A stretch of DNA of 51,537 nucleotides, from the NCBI RefSeq assembly GCF_003610195.1, contig NZ_RAPO01000009.1:1-51537 (forward strand), given 5' to 3'. Each line of letters begins with the position of its first letter. Within the stretch, counting starts at the first letter, position 1. The position numbers were made by a program, and so were the translations under genes. The notes under the pieces are model-generated. The model saw nothing but the letters and a program-made list of their open reading frames with translations. It was not told where the DNA came from and searched no databases. The DNA is from Halopiger aswanensis. GTDB taxonomy: Archaea; Halobacteriota; Halobacteria; Halobacteriales; Natrialbaceae. Positions 18,378 through 30,152 of the stretch are shown here, one piece after another.

Positions 18378-19406
18378 ATGATCCGCGATGCTCGAGTCCT
18401 TCGCGCCGGTTTCGTTCCTCGAGAAGTTGAGCATCGCGACGCCGAAGTGAACCATCTTTCGAGTGTCCTCAAACCCATCACGAACGGCGAGCCTGCTGAC
18501 ACGGCTATTGTGACTGGACCGAGCGGCACGGGGAAAACCTGCATCTCGAAATTCGTTACCGAACGCCTTCGCGAAGAGGTGCTCGATGTCGAAGCCACCT
18601 ACGTCAACTGCTGGCGCAACTATACTCGCTTCCGGACCCTCTACCAGATCCTTGATGACTTGGGAACGACGATCGACATCCATCGCCAATCAACGCCACA
18701 TGACGAACTCATCGAACGACTCCAGCAGTACAACGGCCCTCGGACCGTAGTTATCCTCGACGAGGTCGATCAACTGGAGGATCCGAGCGTTCTCTACGAC
18801 CTCCACAGCCTCCCGCAGTTTGCAATCATCTGCATTGCGAACAAGGAAGAGGACTTGTTCAATCGCGTTGATGACCGTCTCGTAAGCCGACTCCGCTCGA
18901 GCGAGCACGTCCGAATGGACAAATACCACAACGAGCAACTCTACGACATTCTTCAGGCACGCACCAAGCGTGGACTCGAGCAGGAAGCCATCACAGACGA
19001 GCAACTATACCGGATCGCGGATGCAGCAGCCGGCGATGCTCGTCTCGCTATTGGTATGCTCCGATCCGCAGCAAGCAAAGCCGACCGAGAGAACCAGGAG
19101 CGGATTACCGACGATATTCTGCTCGATGCAGCGACGGATGCCCGCGCGCAGATTAAACAGCGAAGCCTCGATTCGCTTACGCCCCATCAGCAGGTCGTAT
19201 ACAACATTGTTCGCGATGACGGCCCGCTTGCACCGGGAGAGATCCACGAACGATACGTCGACGAAGTTGATGATCCCCGAACGAAACGAACCGTTCGGGC
19301 CTATCTCTCGAAAATGGCACAGTATAATCTTCTTGAGGCAGAGGGGACAAGCCGAGACCGTGAATACTCATTAGTCAATTCAACAGCTTCCCCCTCTGTT
19401 CAGTAG
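18378..19406 (+). CDS. orc1: Orc1/Cdc6 replication initiator (first copy)
   Basis: AAA+ origin-recognition protein, 342 residues. Walker A is VTGPSGTGKT (about 45-54), Walker B VVILDEVDQLED, sensor 1 AIICIANKEEDL with the Arg-rich VSRLRSSEHV, and sensor 2 in AAAGDARLAIGML. A C-terminal winged helix runs from about 265 (HQQVVYNIVRDDGPLAPGEI). It is shorter at the N-terminus than the second copy at 25382. It lies next to parA and its repeats, so this is a self-contained replication and partition module of a plasmid type. Confidence 0.92.
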   Translation: MIRDARVLRAGFVPREVEHRDAEVNHLSSVLKPITNGEPADTAIVTGPSGTGKTCISKFVTERLREEVLDVEATYVNCWRNYTRFRTLYQILDDLGTTIDIHRQSTPHDELIERLQQYNGPRTVVILDEVDQLEDPSVLYDLHSLPQFAIICIANKEEDLFNRVDDRLVSRLRSSEHVRMDKYHNEQLYDILQARTKRGLEQEAITDEQLYRIADAAAGDARLAIGMLRSAASKADRENQERITDDILLDAATDARAQIKQRSLDSLTPHQQVVYNIVRDDGPLAPGEIHERYVDEVDDPRTKRTVRAYLSKMAQYNLLEAEGTSRDREYSLVNSTASPSVQ

Positions 19407-20537: not shown

Positions 20538-21488
20538 ATGCTCGAGGGATCCGCGTCACCATCGAATCAGCTGGCAGTAGATCGTCCGACTCGAGGAGCA
20601 GACCGCAATCGCGATCTCGTCAAGCGAGCCGATCCAGCGACCGACGAGTTGCTTCTCCCTTCGCTCGAGAAGGGAATTACGCTCCTAGACATCAACGGGG
20701 ATGGAGATGTCCCAGTTCTGCAGTCACTTGTCCTTGACCACTTACTTTTGAACGTCGGGCCCGCGTTCTGGGTCGACGCAAATAGTCACGCTACTACGAC
20801 TGGACTCGCTCGAGTTGCACCGAGCCAGCGGTTACTCGATCGAATCCACGTTGCTCGAGGCTTCACTCCCTACCAGCACTATGGAGCGATCTGTGACCTC
20901 CCCACTGCGGTAAATCAGTCCATTCAGCAATCGACTGCAAAAGCGGACACGTCACGTCGGAAGGCGACTAATCGCGATGGGGAATCATCTCCGCATACCC
21001 CCTCCCTCCTTGTGGTCCCAGCAGTCGATGTACAGTACCGTGCTGATGACACACTCCGAGAAGCGCATTCAGAGACACTCCAAGCGAGAACACTCGCACG
21101 ATTAGCCACCTATGCTGAGGGATACGATATCCCGGTTCTCGTTACCCGCAGTAAGCGAGACGAATTCACGGCGCCGATCGCGACAGTTGCCGACCACCAT
21201 CTGAAGTGTGAACAGACCCGAATGGGACCACGGTTCGTCGGTGAGGAGTTCGAGACGCTTGTGTATCCGGTCGACGATGGCGCATACTATCAGACGACGT
21301 TCGCGTATTGGCAGCAGCTGCTTGGTGCTCGAGCGAAGCAGCTTGGTCTAGAGCCGGCTACCCCCTCGACGTCATCGGAACGTGCTGCAAGTATCGGGAC
21401 AGGTGTAACTGCTGGCGGAGAGACGGCAACGCTCACTGCGAATCCACTGCTCGACGCGTGGACTGCTGCTGATACGGGAGGGCGATAA
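20538..21488 (+). CDS. RadA/RecA-like protein with lost P-loop
   Basis: 316 residues. The region 40-130 follows the RadA core layout: GITLLDINGDGDVPVLQSLV stands where RadA has its Walker A, but there is no GxxxxGK[TS]. AFWVDANSHATTTGL and DRIHVARGFTPYQHY then match the strand and helix that carry the catalytic Glu in RadA. LLVVPAVDVQYR (about 157-168) sits at the Walker B position. It therefore looks like a RecA-fold protein that no longer binds ATP, or binds it in another way. It is first of three genes separated by 2 bases each, ending in a DNA polymerase. The arrangement recalls bacterial ImuA, a RecA-like partner of an error-prone polymerase. Confidence 0.7.
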   Translation: MLEGSASPSNQLAVDRPTRGADRNRDLVKRADPATDELLLPSLEKGITLLDINGDGDVPVLQSLVLDHLLLNVGPAFWVDANSHATTTGLARVAPSQRLLDRIHVARGFTPYQHYGAICDLPTAVNQSIQQSTAKADTSRRKATNRDGESSPHTPSLLVVPAVDVQYRADDTLREAHSETLQARTLARLATYAEGYDIPVLVTRSKRDEFTAPIATVADHHLKCEQTRMGPRFVGEEFETLVYPVDDGAYYQTTFAYWQQLLGARAKQLGLEPATPSTSSERAASIGTGVTAGGETATLTANPLLDAWTAADTGGR

Positions 21489-21490
21489 CG

Positions 21491-21796
21491 ATGGGGCGAA
21501 CCAATCCGACGTACCGGGATGCCCTTCGGGCGATCGAAGAGCGATGGTCGGACTTCCGGCAGGCTCTTCGCCGTCGTGATCAACCTCGATTTGACCAGCT
21601 GTTCACGTACGCTCGTGAGCACGCCGACGCCAGTGGGTTACTGAATCACCAAAATCCGCTGCTTCCGGCACTCCTCAGCATCGATCTCGAGCAGGAAGCG
21701 CGCCTAGATGCACATGAGGAACGCCTCGAGGAACTCGAAGCGGCGCTCGAAGCGAGAGACGACCATACAGACGATTCGGCTGAGAGCGACGAATAG
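21491..21796 (+). CDS. Small conserved protein of the polymerase operon
   Basis: 101 residues, acidic and mostly helical. RALRRRDQPRFDQLFTYARE is followed by a C-terminal coiled stretch (ARLDAHEERLEELEAALEAR) and an Asp/Glu-rich tail. I do not recognise a domain with a known function. It lies 2 bases after the RadA-like gene and 2 bases before the polymerase gene, so it is almost certainly co-expressed and may be an adaptor or regulator of one of them. Confidence 0.75.
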   Translation: MGRTNPTYRDALRAIEERWSDFRQALRRRDQPRFDQLFTYAREHADASGLLNHQNPLLPALLSIDLEQEARLDAHEERLEELEAALEARDDHTDDSAESDE

Positions 21797-21798
21797 CC

Positions 21799-23967
21799 AT
21801 GCCATTCACAATCGATTTTCTCGATAATGGTCGCGTTCTCGAGTGGGAGACAACATCCGACGGTGCTGTCGCGACCGAGCGCGACGACTACACGCCACGC
21901 TTCTACGTTGCACCCCGGTCATCAGATACGGATCTCGACCTCACAGAGCTTAGAACGATCTACGACCGGCATCCGGATGTCGTCACAACCGAGGTTGTTC
22001 GTCGAAGACCTGGCTTTCGGCGCGACGAGGAAGACGTCCTTGCCGTCGACGTCGATCATATCGATCGGGTCACATCGCTAGCGAGTCAAGCTCGACAGCT
22101 GTCCGACTATCCGATTGGGGATCTCGCCTGCTTTAATGTCGATTTCTCGCGCGAGTTCCGGTACTGTTTGGAGAACGGCCTCGATCCAACGCCAGCGACG
22201 GACCTGTCGACGCTTCGCCTCAGTGTCCCGATGAGCGAGTCCGGGAATGAGACGTACAGAGAGCTGTCGATCGACGGTGAGACAGTTAGTGGTCGATCAG
22301 CGGATATTCTGACTACAGTCCAAGCGGCACTCAAGGCCCATGATCCTGATATCCTCATTTGCTCGACGAGCGAGATCATTCCGACATTGTATGAGATGGC
22401 AGCGACCGCGGGAGTCGGTGACTTTACACTAAGTCGATGGTCTGGCGTTGAGTACCAACAGCTTGCAAGTCGGTCGACATATTCCAGCTACGGGCGTGTC
22501 GGACACTCCCCTGCCCGGTACAACGTTCCTGGTCGAGTGATCATCGACGAGTCGAATACCTTCTTCTACGGCGAGACAAACCTCGAGGGCATCCTCGATC
22601 TCGTCTCCCGCTCGAAAAAGCCAGTCCAAGAGCTCGCGTGGGCATCAATTGGAAACGTCCTCACTTCGATCCAGATTTGCGAAGCCCACGACCGCGATGT
22701 ATTAGTGCCGTGGAATTCCTGGCGCCATGAGTTCTACAAGCCGATGGGCACGCTCCATGACGCTGACCGTGGCGGGTTCATTTTCGCGCCGGATGTTGGT
22801 CTCCACGAAGACGTCCACGAGCTCGATTTCTCGAGCCTCTACCCGAATATCATCTGTACGCGAAACGTCTCACCGGACGTCATCCGATGTGACTGCCATC
22901 ACGATCGCGAGGATGTGCCGGAGCTTGAGTACTCAATCTGTGATGAGCGTGGCTATCTCGTTGATGTCCTCGAACCGATCATCGAGGATCGAGACGAGAT
23001 CAAAGCCGCCATTCGACGCGAACGACAGCGTGACGAGCCTGATGAAAAGCGGCTTCGGGAACTCGAGGGACGCTCGGAAGCGTTGAAGTGGATTCTTGTC
23101 GCCTGTTTTGGCTACCAGGGATTTAGCAACGCGAAGTTCGGACGGATCGAATGCCACGAAGCAATCAATGCGTTTGCTCGTGAAATCCTGCTGACGGCGA
23201 AACAGCGCTTGGAAGCGGGTGGATGGCGAGTCGTCCACGGAATCGTCGATTCGATCTGGGTTACTCCTGATCCGACTATCGATGACACCGAGCGAACTGA
23301 TCTCGAAACGCTTGCGACAGAGATCACTGAGACTGTCAACATTCGACTCGAGCACGAAGCCCACTACGACTGGGTTGCGTTTGTCCCCCAACGCGGGAGT
23401 GACGCTGGTGCGCTGACGAAGTATTTCGGAAAAGTCGCCGGCGAGGACGAGTTCAAGATTAGAGGCATCGAAGCCCGACAGCGGTCAACCCCACCGTTTA
23501 TCGAAGAGGTTCAGCGGAAGTGTCTAGAACAATTTGACGCAACCCGGTCACCGGAAGCGGTCTTCGCCTATCTCCAGAAGGCGATCAAACAGCTACATGC
23601 CGGCGAGGTCCCAGTCAAACAGCTCGTCGAACGGAATCGCATCTCTAAACCACTCGAGGGATACACGCAAAACACGCAGAACGTCGCGGCCCTGAAACGT
23701 GCTCGCGACCAGGATCTCGCCATTCATCCAGGACAAGACATTGAATACGTCGTTGTCGATGACGAGAAGTCTTCGCGGGACCGTGTTGCCCTCACCCATG
23801 AGGAAATTGAGACCTATGACGCTTCCTACTACGAGACACAGCTAGTCCGAGCTGTCGAGAGTGTGCTGTCACCGCTCGGATGGGACCGGATAGATATTCA
23901 ACGAAAACTCTCGACAGGGAAAGAGACTGTTCTGAGTTCGTTCGGCTCCGTCGACGAATTATCGTAG
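21799..23967 (+). CDS. Family B DNA polymerase, proofreading motifs absent
   Basis: 722 residues, PolB fold. Polymerase motif A is DFSSLYPNI (343-351), motif B is K430...FGYQGF, and motif C is HGIVDSIWV with D484 kept; the usual YxDTDS has lost its first Asp. KIRGIEARQR (about 553-562) matches the KxY/RGxExxR region. In the exonuclease domain, Exo I (LRLSVP, about 139-144) has no DxE, and Exo II (DPDILICSTSEIIP) has no Asn or Asp. Polymerisation therefore looks possible and proofreading does not. It resembles the haloarchaeal PolB2-type group rather than the replicative PolB. It is last in an operon with a degenerate RadA-like protein. Confidence 0.85.
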   Translation: MPFTIDFLDNGRVLEWETTSDGAVATERDDYTPRFYVAPRSSDTDLDLTELRTIYDRHPDVVTTEVVRRRPGFRRDEEDVLAVDVDHIDRVTSLASQARQLSDYPIGDLACFNVDFSREFRYCLENGLDPTPATDLSTLRLSVPMSESGNETYRELSIDGETVSGRSADILTTVQAALKAHDPDILICSTSEIIPTLYEMAATAGVGDFTLSRWSGVEYQQLASRSTYSSYGRVGHSPARYNVPGRVIIDESNTFFYGETNLEGILDLVSRSKKPVQELAWASIGNVLTSIQICEAHDRDVLVPWNSWRHEFYKPMGTLHDADRGGFIFAPDVGLHEDVHELDFSSLYPNIICTRNVSPDVIRCDCHHDREDVPELEYSICDERGYLVDVLEPIIEDRDEIKAAIRRERQRDEPDEKRLRELEGRSEALKWILVACFGYQGFSNAKFGRIECHEAINAFAREILLTAKQRLEAGGWRVVHGIVDSIWVTPDPTIDDTERTDLETLATEITETVNIRLEHEAHYDWVAFVPQRGSDAGALTKYFGKVAGEDEFKIRGIEARQRSTPPFIEEVQRKCLEQFDATRSPEAVFAYLQKAIKQLHAGEVPVKQLVERNRISKPLEGYTQNTQNVAALKRARDQDLAIHPGQDIEYVVVDDEKSSRDRVALTHEEIETYDASYYETQLVRAVESVLSPLGWDRIDIQRKLSTGKETVLSSFGSVDELS

Positions 23968-25361: not shown

Positions 25362-25381
25362 CTGCCTGTATGGTCCTTCAC

Positions 25382-26851
25382 ATGGGTACTGACGACTCCG
25401 ACGGTTCTCAACCTGAGACGAGAACACCGGAGGATGAGACTACAACGCAAACAGACCTTTCTTCGGCTCCCTCTGAATCGGACTCAACTTCGGATCAGGA
25501 TACTGCCCCGATACCTAACGAGCAATCCTCGTCAACTGATCCTAGCTCCGATGACTCCTCGCAGTCGATCGAGGACATGCTGCTCGAGTTTGATCAACAG
25601 GATGGGCTAATTCGTGACCGATCGCTTCTCGATCCGAATTACGTAGTTACGGAAGATCGAATCGTCGGTCGCGATGAGCAACTCCAGGAAGTCACCAAGA
25701 TGCTTCGTGTTGCACTCGGTGGCAATCGTCCACCGAATCTCTTCCTCTATGGTCCATCTGGTACCGGAAAATCGCTCATCACGAAAGCTGTCTGTAATAA
25801 CATCAGCCGTATTTGTGAAACCCGCGACATCAGTTTCGGAACGATTGAGGTTAATTGCCAAGACCTCGACACTCTCGGCGTCGCGGTATATGAACTGACG
25901 AAACAGGCGGCTGATCAGGCCGGTGTGGATGTCCAGGTTCCGAAACACGGAGTTGCGACGAAAGAAAAATGGGATGAACTCTATCGTATCGTCAATGAGA
26001 ACTTTGACTCGGTCGTATTCGTTCTTGATGAACTCGATATGCTCGTTGGTCGGCGTGATAAACAGGAACCAGCATTCTCGCGACTTCTATATCAACTCTC
26101 ACGAGCTGGCGCGAACGACGACCTCACTGCCTCGATCTCAGTGGTCGCTATCTCGAACGATACACGGATGATGGAAGCTGTTGGAAGCCGCGCATTGAGT
26201 TCGTTTACCCCAGAAGACGTTCATTTCGATGACTACGACGCGAATCAACTCCAGGCGATTCTTCGTCGACGTCAAGACGCTTTCCACGACAGCGTCGTAG
26301 ATGACGATGTTATTCCGCTTGCAGCAGCGTTCGCGGCGCAAACACACGGAGACGCACGGAAAGCGATTGACCTCATGCGTGTCGCCGGCGAACTTGCCGA
26401 ACGAGAAGGTAACGAGCGTGTTCGCGAGGAACACGTCCGAGAGGCCCAGGAGAAGGTTGAGAAGAACCGTGTTCTCGAGGTCGTCCGCGGTATCAGTACC
26501 CAGAAAAAGCTGTGTCTCTACGCGACGGCAGCGGTCGCCTCCCAGACCAAGGATGGAGCCGCTCGGAGTACGACCGGTTATCAGGTCTATCAGTACCTCA
26601 CTGACACCATCGATGCCGATCAGTACCACCAGGAAACGTACGTCAATAAGATGAAGGAGCTGACGACGTACTCACTCGTCGACTTTGAGCGACGGAGTCA
26701 CGGTCCTAGCTCTGGCATGTTCTTGGAATTCCAATTCGAGGAGCGACCTGAGACTATCCTCGAGACACTTCGCGAAGATTCTCGGATCGATATGGTCTCA
26801 TCCGAAGAAGTTCAATCAGTTGTGAAGGCACAAATTCGGAATCGAACGTAG
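25382..26851 (+). CDS. orc1: Orc1/Cdc6 replication initiator (second copy)
   Basis: AAA+ initiator, about 489 residues from ATG 25382 (MGTDDSDGSQPETRTPEDET). A disordered acidic tail of about 75 residues precedes the core. Core motifs are Walker A LYGPSGTGKS, Walker B VVFVLDELDMLV, a sensor 1 region around VVAISNDTRMMEAV, and sensor 2 near HGDARKAIDLMRVAGE. The C-terminal winged helix is about 370-485 (KKLCLYATAAVASQ). The gene is flanked on both sides by copies of the same 21-bp repeat, so it is the cognate initiator of this origin. It is distinct from the copy at 18378. Confidence 0.95.
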   Translation: MGTDDSDGSQPETRTPEDETTTQTDLSSAPSESDSTSDQDTAPIPNEQSSSTDPSSDDSSQSIEDMLLEFDQQDGLIRDRSLLDPNYVVTEDRIVGRDEQLQEVTKMLRVALGGNRPPNLFLYGPSGTGKSLITKAVCNNISRICETRDISFGTIEVNCQDLDTLGVAVYELTKQAADQAGVDVQVPKHGVATKEKWDELYRIVNENFDSVVFVLDELDMLVGRRDKQEPAFSRLLYQLSRAGANDDLTASISVVAISNDTRMMEAVGSRALSSFTPEDVHFDDYDANQLQAILRRRQDAFHDSVVDDDVIPLAAAFAAQTHGDARKAIDLMRVAGELAEREGNERVREEHVREAQEKVEKNRVLEVVRGISTQKKLCLYATAAVASQTKDGAARSTTGYQVYQYLTDTIDADQYHQETYVNKMKELTTYSLVDFERRSHGPSSGMFLEFQFEERPETILETLREDSRIDMVSSEEVQSVVKAQIRNRT

Positions 26852-29139: not shown

Positions 29140-30078
29140 TTAGGACGAGGATCCGTCTTTGAGGATCTCGATCAGTTCCTCTGCTGTTCGACTAATCCGC
29201 CCGAGACGTTCGCGGACGACCTCGGGATCGTCCGACTCCCACGTAGCGAGGTAGAATGCTGACCCGCTGGTGTCGAGCCCGCAGTACCGGCCGACGACAT
29301 ACGCGACAGCTTCGGCCTCGAGTTCGCGTTTCGACCGCTCGGTGTCGTCGTCGACGTCGAAATGAAGCAGGGCGTGCGCGTACTCATGGATCAGCGTTCG
29401 GGCGAGATCGGCATTGTTCTCTCGGTCACGGATCTCGACGCGCGGCTGCATATCAATAAGGCTGCGCTGCTTACAGACGCCCCTCGCTTCACCGTGGGTC
29501 CACTCTTCCTCTGGAAGGATCCGAACCGTCACGCCGAGTTCGTCAGCGGCGTCGATCAACTGTGGAACGAGATCACCGGCGTCACCAGTCGCTTCTGTCT
29601 CGAGGTCCGGAAGCGGCTCACCCTTGGTCTGGGAGATGTCGAACACTGGGGCAGGCTTGAATCCGACGAGACCTTTCGACCACTCTTCAGGCGGTGTCTC
29701 GTCGTAGTCGCAGTCACTGTTCTCGTGGTAGCTGGGCGAATTCTCGCACTCCGGACACTGCTTCGTGATGATCGGTGCCCAGATCCAGATCGCCTGTTCG
29801 CCTTCCTTGACGTGACGATCGAATTCTTCCTGCCACGTTCGGTAGCCAGCAACTCGGGTTGCATCGGGATACTGGAGTTTGATCAGGAGTGTGTTCCGAT
29901 GAGAGTAGTCGTGGAAGCGACTCTGGACGTCGAGCCACTCCTGAAACTCTGCGCTGGCCTGCGCATCGTCGACTTCGGCGACAAGATCGTCGATCCACTG
30001 TTCGATGGTGCTGTTCATCTCGTCAGATCGCGTGTCGGTCTGTTCGAAGGAGACCGACGAATCACTGGTCGTGGACAT
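29140..30078 (-). CDS. ArdC-like antirestriction protein with HEYAH peptidase domain
   Basis: 312 residues from ATG 30078 (MSTTSDSSVSFEQTDTRSDE). The N-terminal ArdC/DUF1738-type ssDNA-binding domain (about 25-150) shows FHDYSHRNTLLIKLQYPDAT and VAGYRTWQEEFDRHVKEGE, with an inserted CPEC...CDYDE stretch that may bind metal. The C-terminal zincin domain has HEYAH (HExxH) with a downstream Glu in ELEAEAVAYVVG. ArdC-type proteins protect incoming plasmid DNA during transfer, which suits this plasmid region. The HEYAH site is intact, so the peptidase may be active. Confidence 0.85.
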   Translation of the reverse strand: MSTTSDSSVSFEQTDTRSDEMNSTIEQWIDDLVAEVDDAQASAEFQEWLDVQSRFHDYSHRNTLLIKLQYPDATRVAGYRTWQEEFDRHVKEGEQAIWIWAPIITKQCPECENSPSYHENSDCDYDETPPEEWSKGLVGFKPAPVFDISQTKGEPLPDLETEATGDAGDLVPQLIDAADELGVTVRILPEEEWTHGEARGVCKQRSLIDMQPRVEIRDRENNADLARTLIHEYAHALLHFDVDDDTERSKRELEAEAVAYVVGRYCGLDTSGSAFYLATWESDDPEVVRERLGRISRTAEELIEILKDGSSS

Positions 30079-30131
30079 CGTGTTCACCGAATCAGGTTCA
30101 CGGCGACTGCGTCTGTTCAGACCGCGCCGCA

Positions 30132-30152
30132 CCCCTCAGGGGCGTTCAAAAA
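30132..30152 (-). promoter_or_regulatory. T-tract plus CCCC-TGA-GGGG hairpin before ardC
   Basis: On the minus strand, TTTTT (30148-30152), 11-15 bases after the stop of the preceding gene, is followed by a CCCC/GGGG stem (30132-30142). The same arrangement recurs at 30553-30573 and 32792-32819. Confidence 0.4.

Follow-up and report, generated by a model that had tools for sequence, protein, structure and literature searches.

A probable haloarchaeal copy of the PolB2 mutasome operon in Halopiger aswanensis, and a putative exonuclease gene linked to related operons

The DNA analysed here (the window) is a stretch of 51,537 nucleotides, positions 1 to 51,537 of contig NZ_RAPO01000009.1 of Halopiger aswanensis (assembly GCF_003610195.1). 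At positions 20538-23967, three genes lie on one strand with a 2-nt gap at each junction, as the initial annotation had stated and as their open reading frames confirm. The operon and its neighbours are as follows.

18378..19406, + strand: Orc1/Cdc6-family ATPase, upstream of iRadA
20538..21488, + strand: iRadA, a RadA/Rad51-derived protein of the arCOG07763 type (ORF, 316 aa)
21491..21796, + strand: PPB2 (arCOG07300), with an N-terminal MGRTNPTYRD arm (ORF, 101 aa)
21799..23967, + strand: PolB2, of the exonuclease-dead family-B polymerase group, with motif A DFSSLYP and motif C GIVDS (ORF, 722 aa)
25370..26851, + strand: second Orc1/Cdc6-family protein, downstream of PolB2

With Orc1/Cdc6 genes on both sides of the operon and a ParA-like gene upstream, the region resembles a segment for plasmid maintenance. 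In 21 related loci, a homologue of the product of 18378..19406, with more than 75% identity, is located upstream, and Orc1/Cdc6 neighbours of PolB2 operons have already been published (PMC11791011). SRAP genes in PolB2 neighbourhoods have likewise been published; in two of the loci compared here, an SRAP (abasic-site protein) gene is situated between the Orc1/Cdc6 gene and iRadA (L224:1155-1841 and L230:2149-2835). Elsewhere in the window, the product of 29140-30132 (- strand) has weak matches to the ArdC N-terminal domain and the M78 peptidase and is possibly a mobile-element anti-restriction protein. The same genome contains a decayed second PolB2 fragment (G000:C5:99273-99803, locus L002), which is 57% identical and carries an internal stop codon.

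The window PolB2 matches NCBIfam NF004418 with 1398 bits and Pfam DNA_pol_B with an E-value of 1e-27, the latter match being confined to residues 322-692. Some other loci give longer polymerase matches. The closest solved structures are those of archaeal PolB, and the alignment to them is confined to the polymerase part. A whole-genome search with the Pfam family-B exonuclease domain yields one place only, the host's other PolB, and leaves the window PolB2 gene unmatched. When the window PolB2 is aligned with six active archaeal PolB and 12 other PolB2, the Asp and Glu of Exo I (FDIE) and the Asn and Asp of Exo II (N..FD) are missing from every PolB2, the window's included; the Exo III Asp also appears absent, in columns that are unreliably aligned. 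Motif A is intact and the motif B Lys is kept. The earlier description of a polymerase with motif A and without the Exo I and Exo II residues is therefore borne out by this alignment with 18 PolB, in which the residues are not found intact at some other place in the window protein. That description was also right that one motif C Asp is kept, but it passed over the loss of the first of the two, DTDS having become IVDS. PolB2 proteins usually lack this first Asp, and that of Sulfolobus islandicus has an Ile at the position (PMC11791011). Across many genera, the PolB2 ORFs are full-length and about 80% identical at the protein level, with the motif A Asp and the motif B Lys invariant.

The window iRadA, searched alone against Pfam, gives no match. 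A diverse alignment of 23 iRadA orthologues, however, contains 13 that match Pfam Rad51 (best, 2.6e-8), and the profile of these 23 orthologues is collinear with archaeal RadA (hhalign probability 60, E 9e-5), as against 0.0-0.7 in controls with reversed and column-shuffled RadA. Comparison of a profile of close iRadA relatives with RadA is uninformative, and it is the diverse alignment that resolves the relation; HHpred was likewise needed to detect the RadA relation of arCOG07763 (Makarova 2014; PMC4104785). The RadA Walker A motif (EFGSGKSQ) falls on an iRadA segment that contains no Lys, and a Pro stands opposite the Walker B Asp. To judge from these profiles, iRadA is a relative of RadA that has lost the Walker A and Walker B residues. 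Both the missing Walker A Lys and the kinship with RecA/RadA proposed in the initial annotation are thus upheld, the latter by the Rad51 matches and hhalign, and the Walker B Asp proves to be gone as well. The window iRadA differs from more distant haloarchaeal iRadA in having a longer N-terminus and an insert. Its AlphaFold model, built from an alignment of close relatives, has a pLDDT of 30, and this low confidence is probably due to the shallowness of that alignment.

The C-termini of both larger proteins resemble clamp-binding (PIP-like) motifs: NPLLDAWT in iRadA, with tails of the PLLDAWT type or close to it in the other iRadA read, and ETVLSSF in PolB2. The pattern [QE]xx[LIM]xx[FWY] is matched by 37 of 70 PolB2 tails, compared with 3% of shuffled tails, and the host's other PolB ends in QTGLDSFM. 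In the PolB2 mutasome paper (PMC11791011), it was rare for both proteins to have PIP-like motifs; the presence of putative ones in both here is a mild departure from it. On the basis of these tails, the operon proteins may contact the PCNA clamp.

The association of the genes was assessed in a haloarchaeal survey. Of 125 genomes in the family to which the window belongs, 69 contain both iRadA and PolB2 and four are discordant (Fisher p 4e-30, a value that ignores phylogeny); these four hold fragments or stop-interrupted copies only. At 53 of the 56 iRadA places checked, PolB2 follows in the same orientation at a distance below 1.2 kb, so that the expected conservation of the trio as neighbours is confirmed. 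PPB2 adjoins PolB2 in 34 of 84 loci, in most of which 2 nt separate PPB2 from either neighbour; it is further from PolB2 in 24, and was not found in 26, several of which are cut by contig ends. Where it was read in divergent loci, the N-terminus of PPB2 is MGRTNPTYRD or nearly so.

An operon of this composition, iRadA-PPB2-PolB2 (arCOG07763-arCOG07300-PolB2), was described by Makarova 2014 (PMC4104785), and the name 'PolB2 mutasome' and modelled heteropentameric complexes, for other species, were given by Timinskas 2025, where the models show PPB2 as a small helical protein that forms trimers (PMC11791011). Very probably, the window trio is a haloarchaeal copy of this published operon, serving damage tolerance by extension from lesions and mismatches. 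The idea of a mutasome, reached from the window sequence in the initial annotation, is therefore broadly correct and had been published before. The Sulfolobus islandicus PolB2, Dpo2, is an active polymerase without exonuclease that extends past lesions, and induced mutagenesis in this organism requires it; DNA damage induces it. No functional work on a haloarchaeal PolB2 was found in the literature. Haloarchaeal members can be deleted, with viable strains in Halobacterium NRC-1 and Haloferax, which fits a non-essential repair role without proving one. The trio adds one more haloarchaeal copy of a published system, in a group that is genetically easy and in which this system has been little tested functionally.

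A mechanism may be proposed by analogy. Upon DNA damage, PolB2 (catalytic, lacking proofreading), one iRadA (lacking ATPase activity) and a PPB2 trimer would assemble; the complex would load at stalled primer ends, probably through the PCNA clamp, and would extend mismatched or lesion-terminated 3' ends, with survival and mutations as the outcome. The nearby Orc1/Cdc6 would regulate the operon. We infer, in other words, that haloarchaea assemble such a complex and that it is induced and works in the way of its Sulfolobus counterpart.

The surroundings of the operon may also be read differently, the trio being then a plasmid replication or origin-control module in which an inactive polymerase and RadA, together with Orc1/Cdc6, control initiation and do not carry out translesion synthesis. 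The Orc1/Cdc6 genes on both sides, the ParA-like gene and the presence of many operon copies on plasmids agree with such a module, and a role in replication initiation was raised by Makarova 2014 (PMC4104785). It is nevertheless unlikely, considering that the Sulfolobus PolB2 is an active extender needed for induced mutagenesis and that at least one operon copy (L015) is chromosomal. Moreover, an Orc1 paralogue is the regulator of the Sulfolobus damage response (PMC11791011), and Orc1 neighbours therefore fit regulation too. It is less probable still that the polymerase is a decaying, non-functional relic carried on plasmids. The polymerase has indeed lost the Exo I and Exo II residues together with one Asp of motif C, and decayed copies exist, one of them in the genome of the window; but full-length reading frames with an invariant motif A Asp and motif B Lys across many genera, the conserved neighbourhood and the activity of the Sulfolobus PolB2, which has the same motif loss, all argue against a relic. 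Damage tolerance by a PolB2 mutasome is thus the preferred reading of the trio.

The 24 loci in which PolB2 does not directly follow PPB2 were the starting point for a further observation. A motif search finds, in 14 loci, a gene whose product starts with M(T/S)xLxT(V/I)AFDIETTGF and whose ATG overlaps the PPB2 stop by 4 nt. The product matches Pfam RNase_H_2 above threshold, and its catalytic residues are intact, D10, E12, N94, D103, H182 and D186 being invariant in the 11 members aligned. Its model has a pLDDT of 79 and a pTM of 0.80, and the best PDB matches of the model are family-B DNA polymerases (E 1.6e-7, TM-score about 0.6 by query length). These targets are whole polymerases and the target positions are not given; judging by motifs and aligned length, the match would lie on their exonuclease domain. 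Comparison of sequence profiles of the exonuclease and PolB is uninformative, while the fold search is clear. Coordinates of the gene in three loci are given below.

L008:3061-3708, exonuclease gene
L227:5001-5657, exonuclease gene (Haloarcula halophila plasmid)
L264:1501-2178, exonuclease gene (divergent operon, order iRadA-Exo-PPB2-PolB2)

The contiguous order iRadA-PPB2-Exo-PolB2 is seen in three loci, L227 (gaps 2, -4 and 2), L235 and L236, the last two being from two genomes of one genus. The notion that only random cargo lies between PPB2 and PolB2 is partly rejected by the 14 loci with the exonuclease. Genes of the IS605 type are also inserted there, as is a DUF7342 gene in inverted orientation, accompanied by a second small gene. 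At L038:3693-4937 (- strand) and further loci, the inverted genes lie between the exonuclease and PolB2; they encode a DUF7342 winged-helix protein (a similar gene is present in 12 of the 14 loci) and, in 10 loci, a 160-aa protein that is weakly TumE-like in one case. The two may be a toxin-antitoxin pair. In Halobacterium hubeiense, the gene just upstream of iRadA (L230:3018-4463) encodes a fusion of a metallophosphatase with an exonuclease domain of the RNase_H_2 type.

Across the order (293 genomes), there are 25 places with an exonuclease homologue of at least about 60% identity. At 22 of them, a same-strand iRadA precedes the exonuclease by 308-334 nt, a spacing that leaves room for PPB2. 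The other three comprise one with an insertion, one without iRadA nearby and one partial match on a contig in which no iRadA was found. The queries and first loci came from linked operons, and the definition of this clade is therefore somewhat biased towards linkage. A match in a Halobacterium salinarum plasmid (NC_002608.1:286872-287108) covers only 79 exonuclease residues and is therefore probably a fragment. Linkage to iRadA is confined to the clade that exceeds about 60% identity; most of the remoter homologues (about 50% or less) do not have iRadA as a neighbour. The family of the window shows no co-occurrence of exonuclease and iRadA (p 0.82); its homologues are mostly remoter ones (about 35-50% identical), and no iRadA match lies within about 1.5 kb of these on either side. 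No copy was detectable in the genome of the window, in a search without a positive control in that genome, and none was found in a scan of viral contigs. The exonuclease label requires seven changes on the iRadA tree, at least five of them being forced by well-supported branches; the gene has therefore been repeatedly gained or lost.

The simplest reading of these sequences is that the exonuclease would serve PolB2 as a separate subunit for proofreading or for the trimming of ends. We consider the chances about even that some haloarchaeal mutasomes have such a fourth component, an intact PolB-type 3'-5' exonuclease which would restore proofreading in trans or trim 3' ends before extension. Alternatively, it may be an independent nuclease merely sharing regulation, or a part of a plasmid module. 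If it does work with PolB2, B-family proofreading is detachable and carried as an optional subunit, the error-prone polymerase exists in versions with and without it (the window operon being one without), and the mutation rate after damage may be tested against presence or absence of the gene. A separate exonuclease gene is not mentioned in the main texts of the openly licensed PolB2 papers searched, relative to which the linked gene, and not the trio, is new.

The window operon has in common with the PolB2 mutasome (Makarova 2014; Timinskas 2025) the gene order, the three protein families, the MGRT arm of PPB2, the loss of the ATPase residues from iRadA and, from PolB2, that of the exonuclease and of the first Asp in motif C, and the Orc1/Cdc6 neighbours; nothing essential is different. 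With the Sulfolobus islandicus Dpo2 it shares the lost motif C Asp and the absent exonuclease residues, but Dpo2 is a biochemically characterised enzyme of a thermophile, whereas no comparable work on a haloarchaeal member was found. Both Pol V and ImuA-ImuB-DnaE2 likewise combine a polymerase, a small partner and a recombinase homologue in mutagenic damage tolerance. The polymerase belongs to family Y in Pol V and to family C in DnaE2, both unrelated to family B, and ImuB is a Y-family-like protein. PPB2 shows no sequence relation to UmuD' or ImuB. The window trio does not belong to the ImuA-ImuB-DnaE2 cassettes, its polymerase being of family B and its 101-aa protein having no Y-family match. 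Hence, of the initial proposal, the mutasome-like combination of inactive RadA, small partner and exonuclease-dead PolB stands, while the parallel with ImuA-ImuB-DnaE2, correctly labelled there as inference, gives way to the closer one that has been published for the PolB2 mutasome, Pol V (UmuC-UmuD'-RecA).
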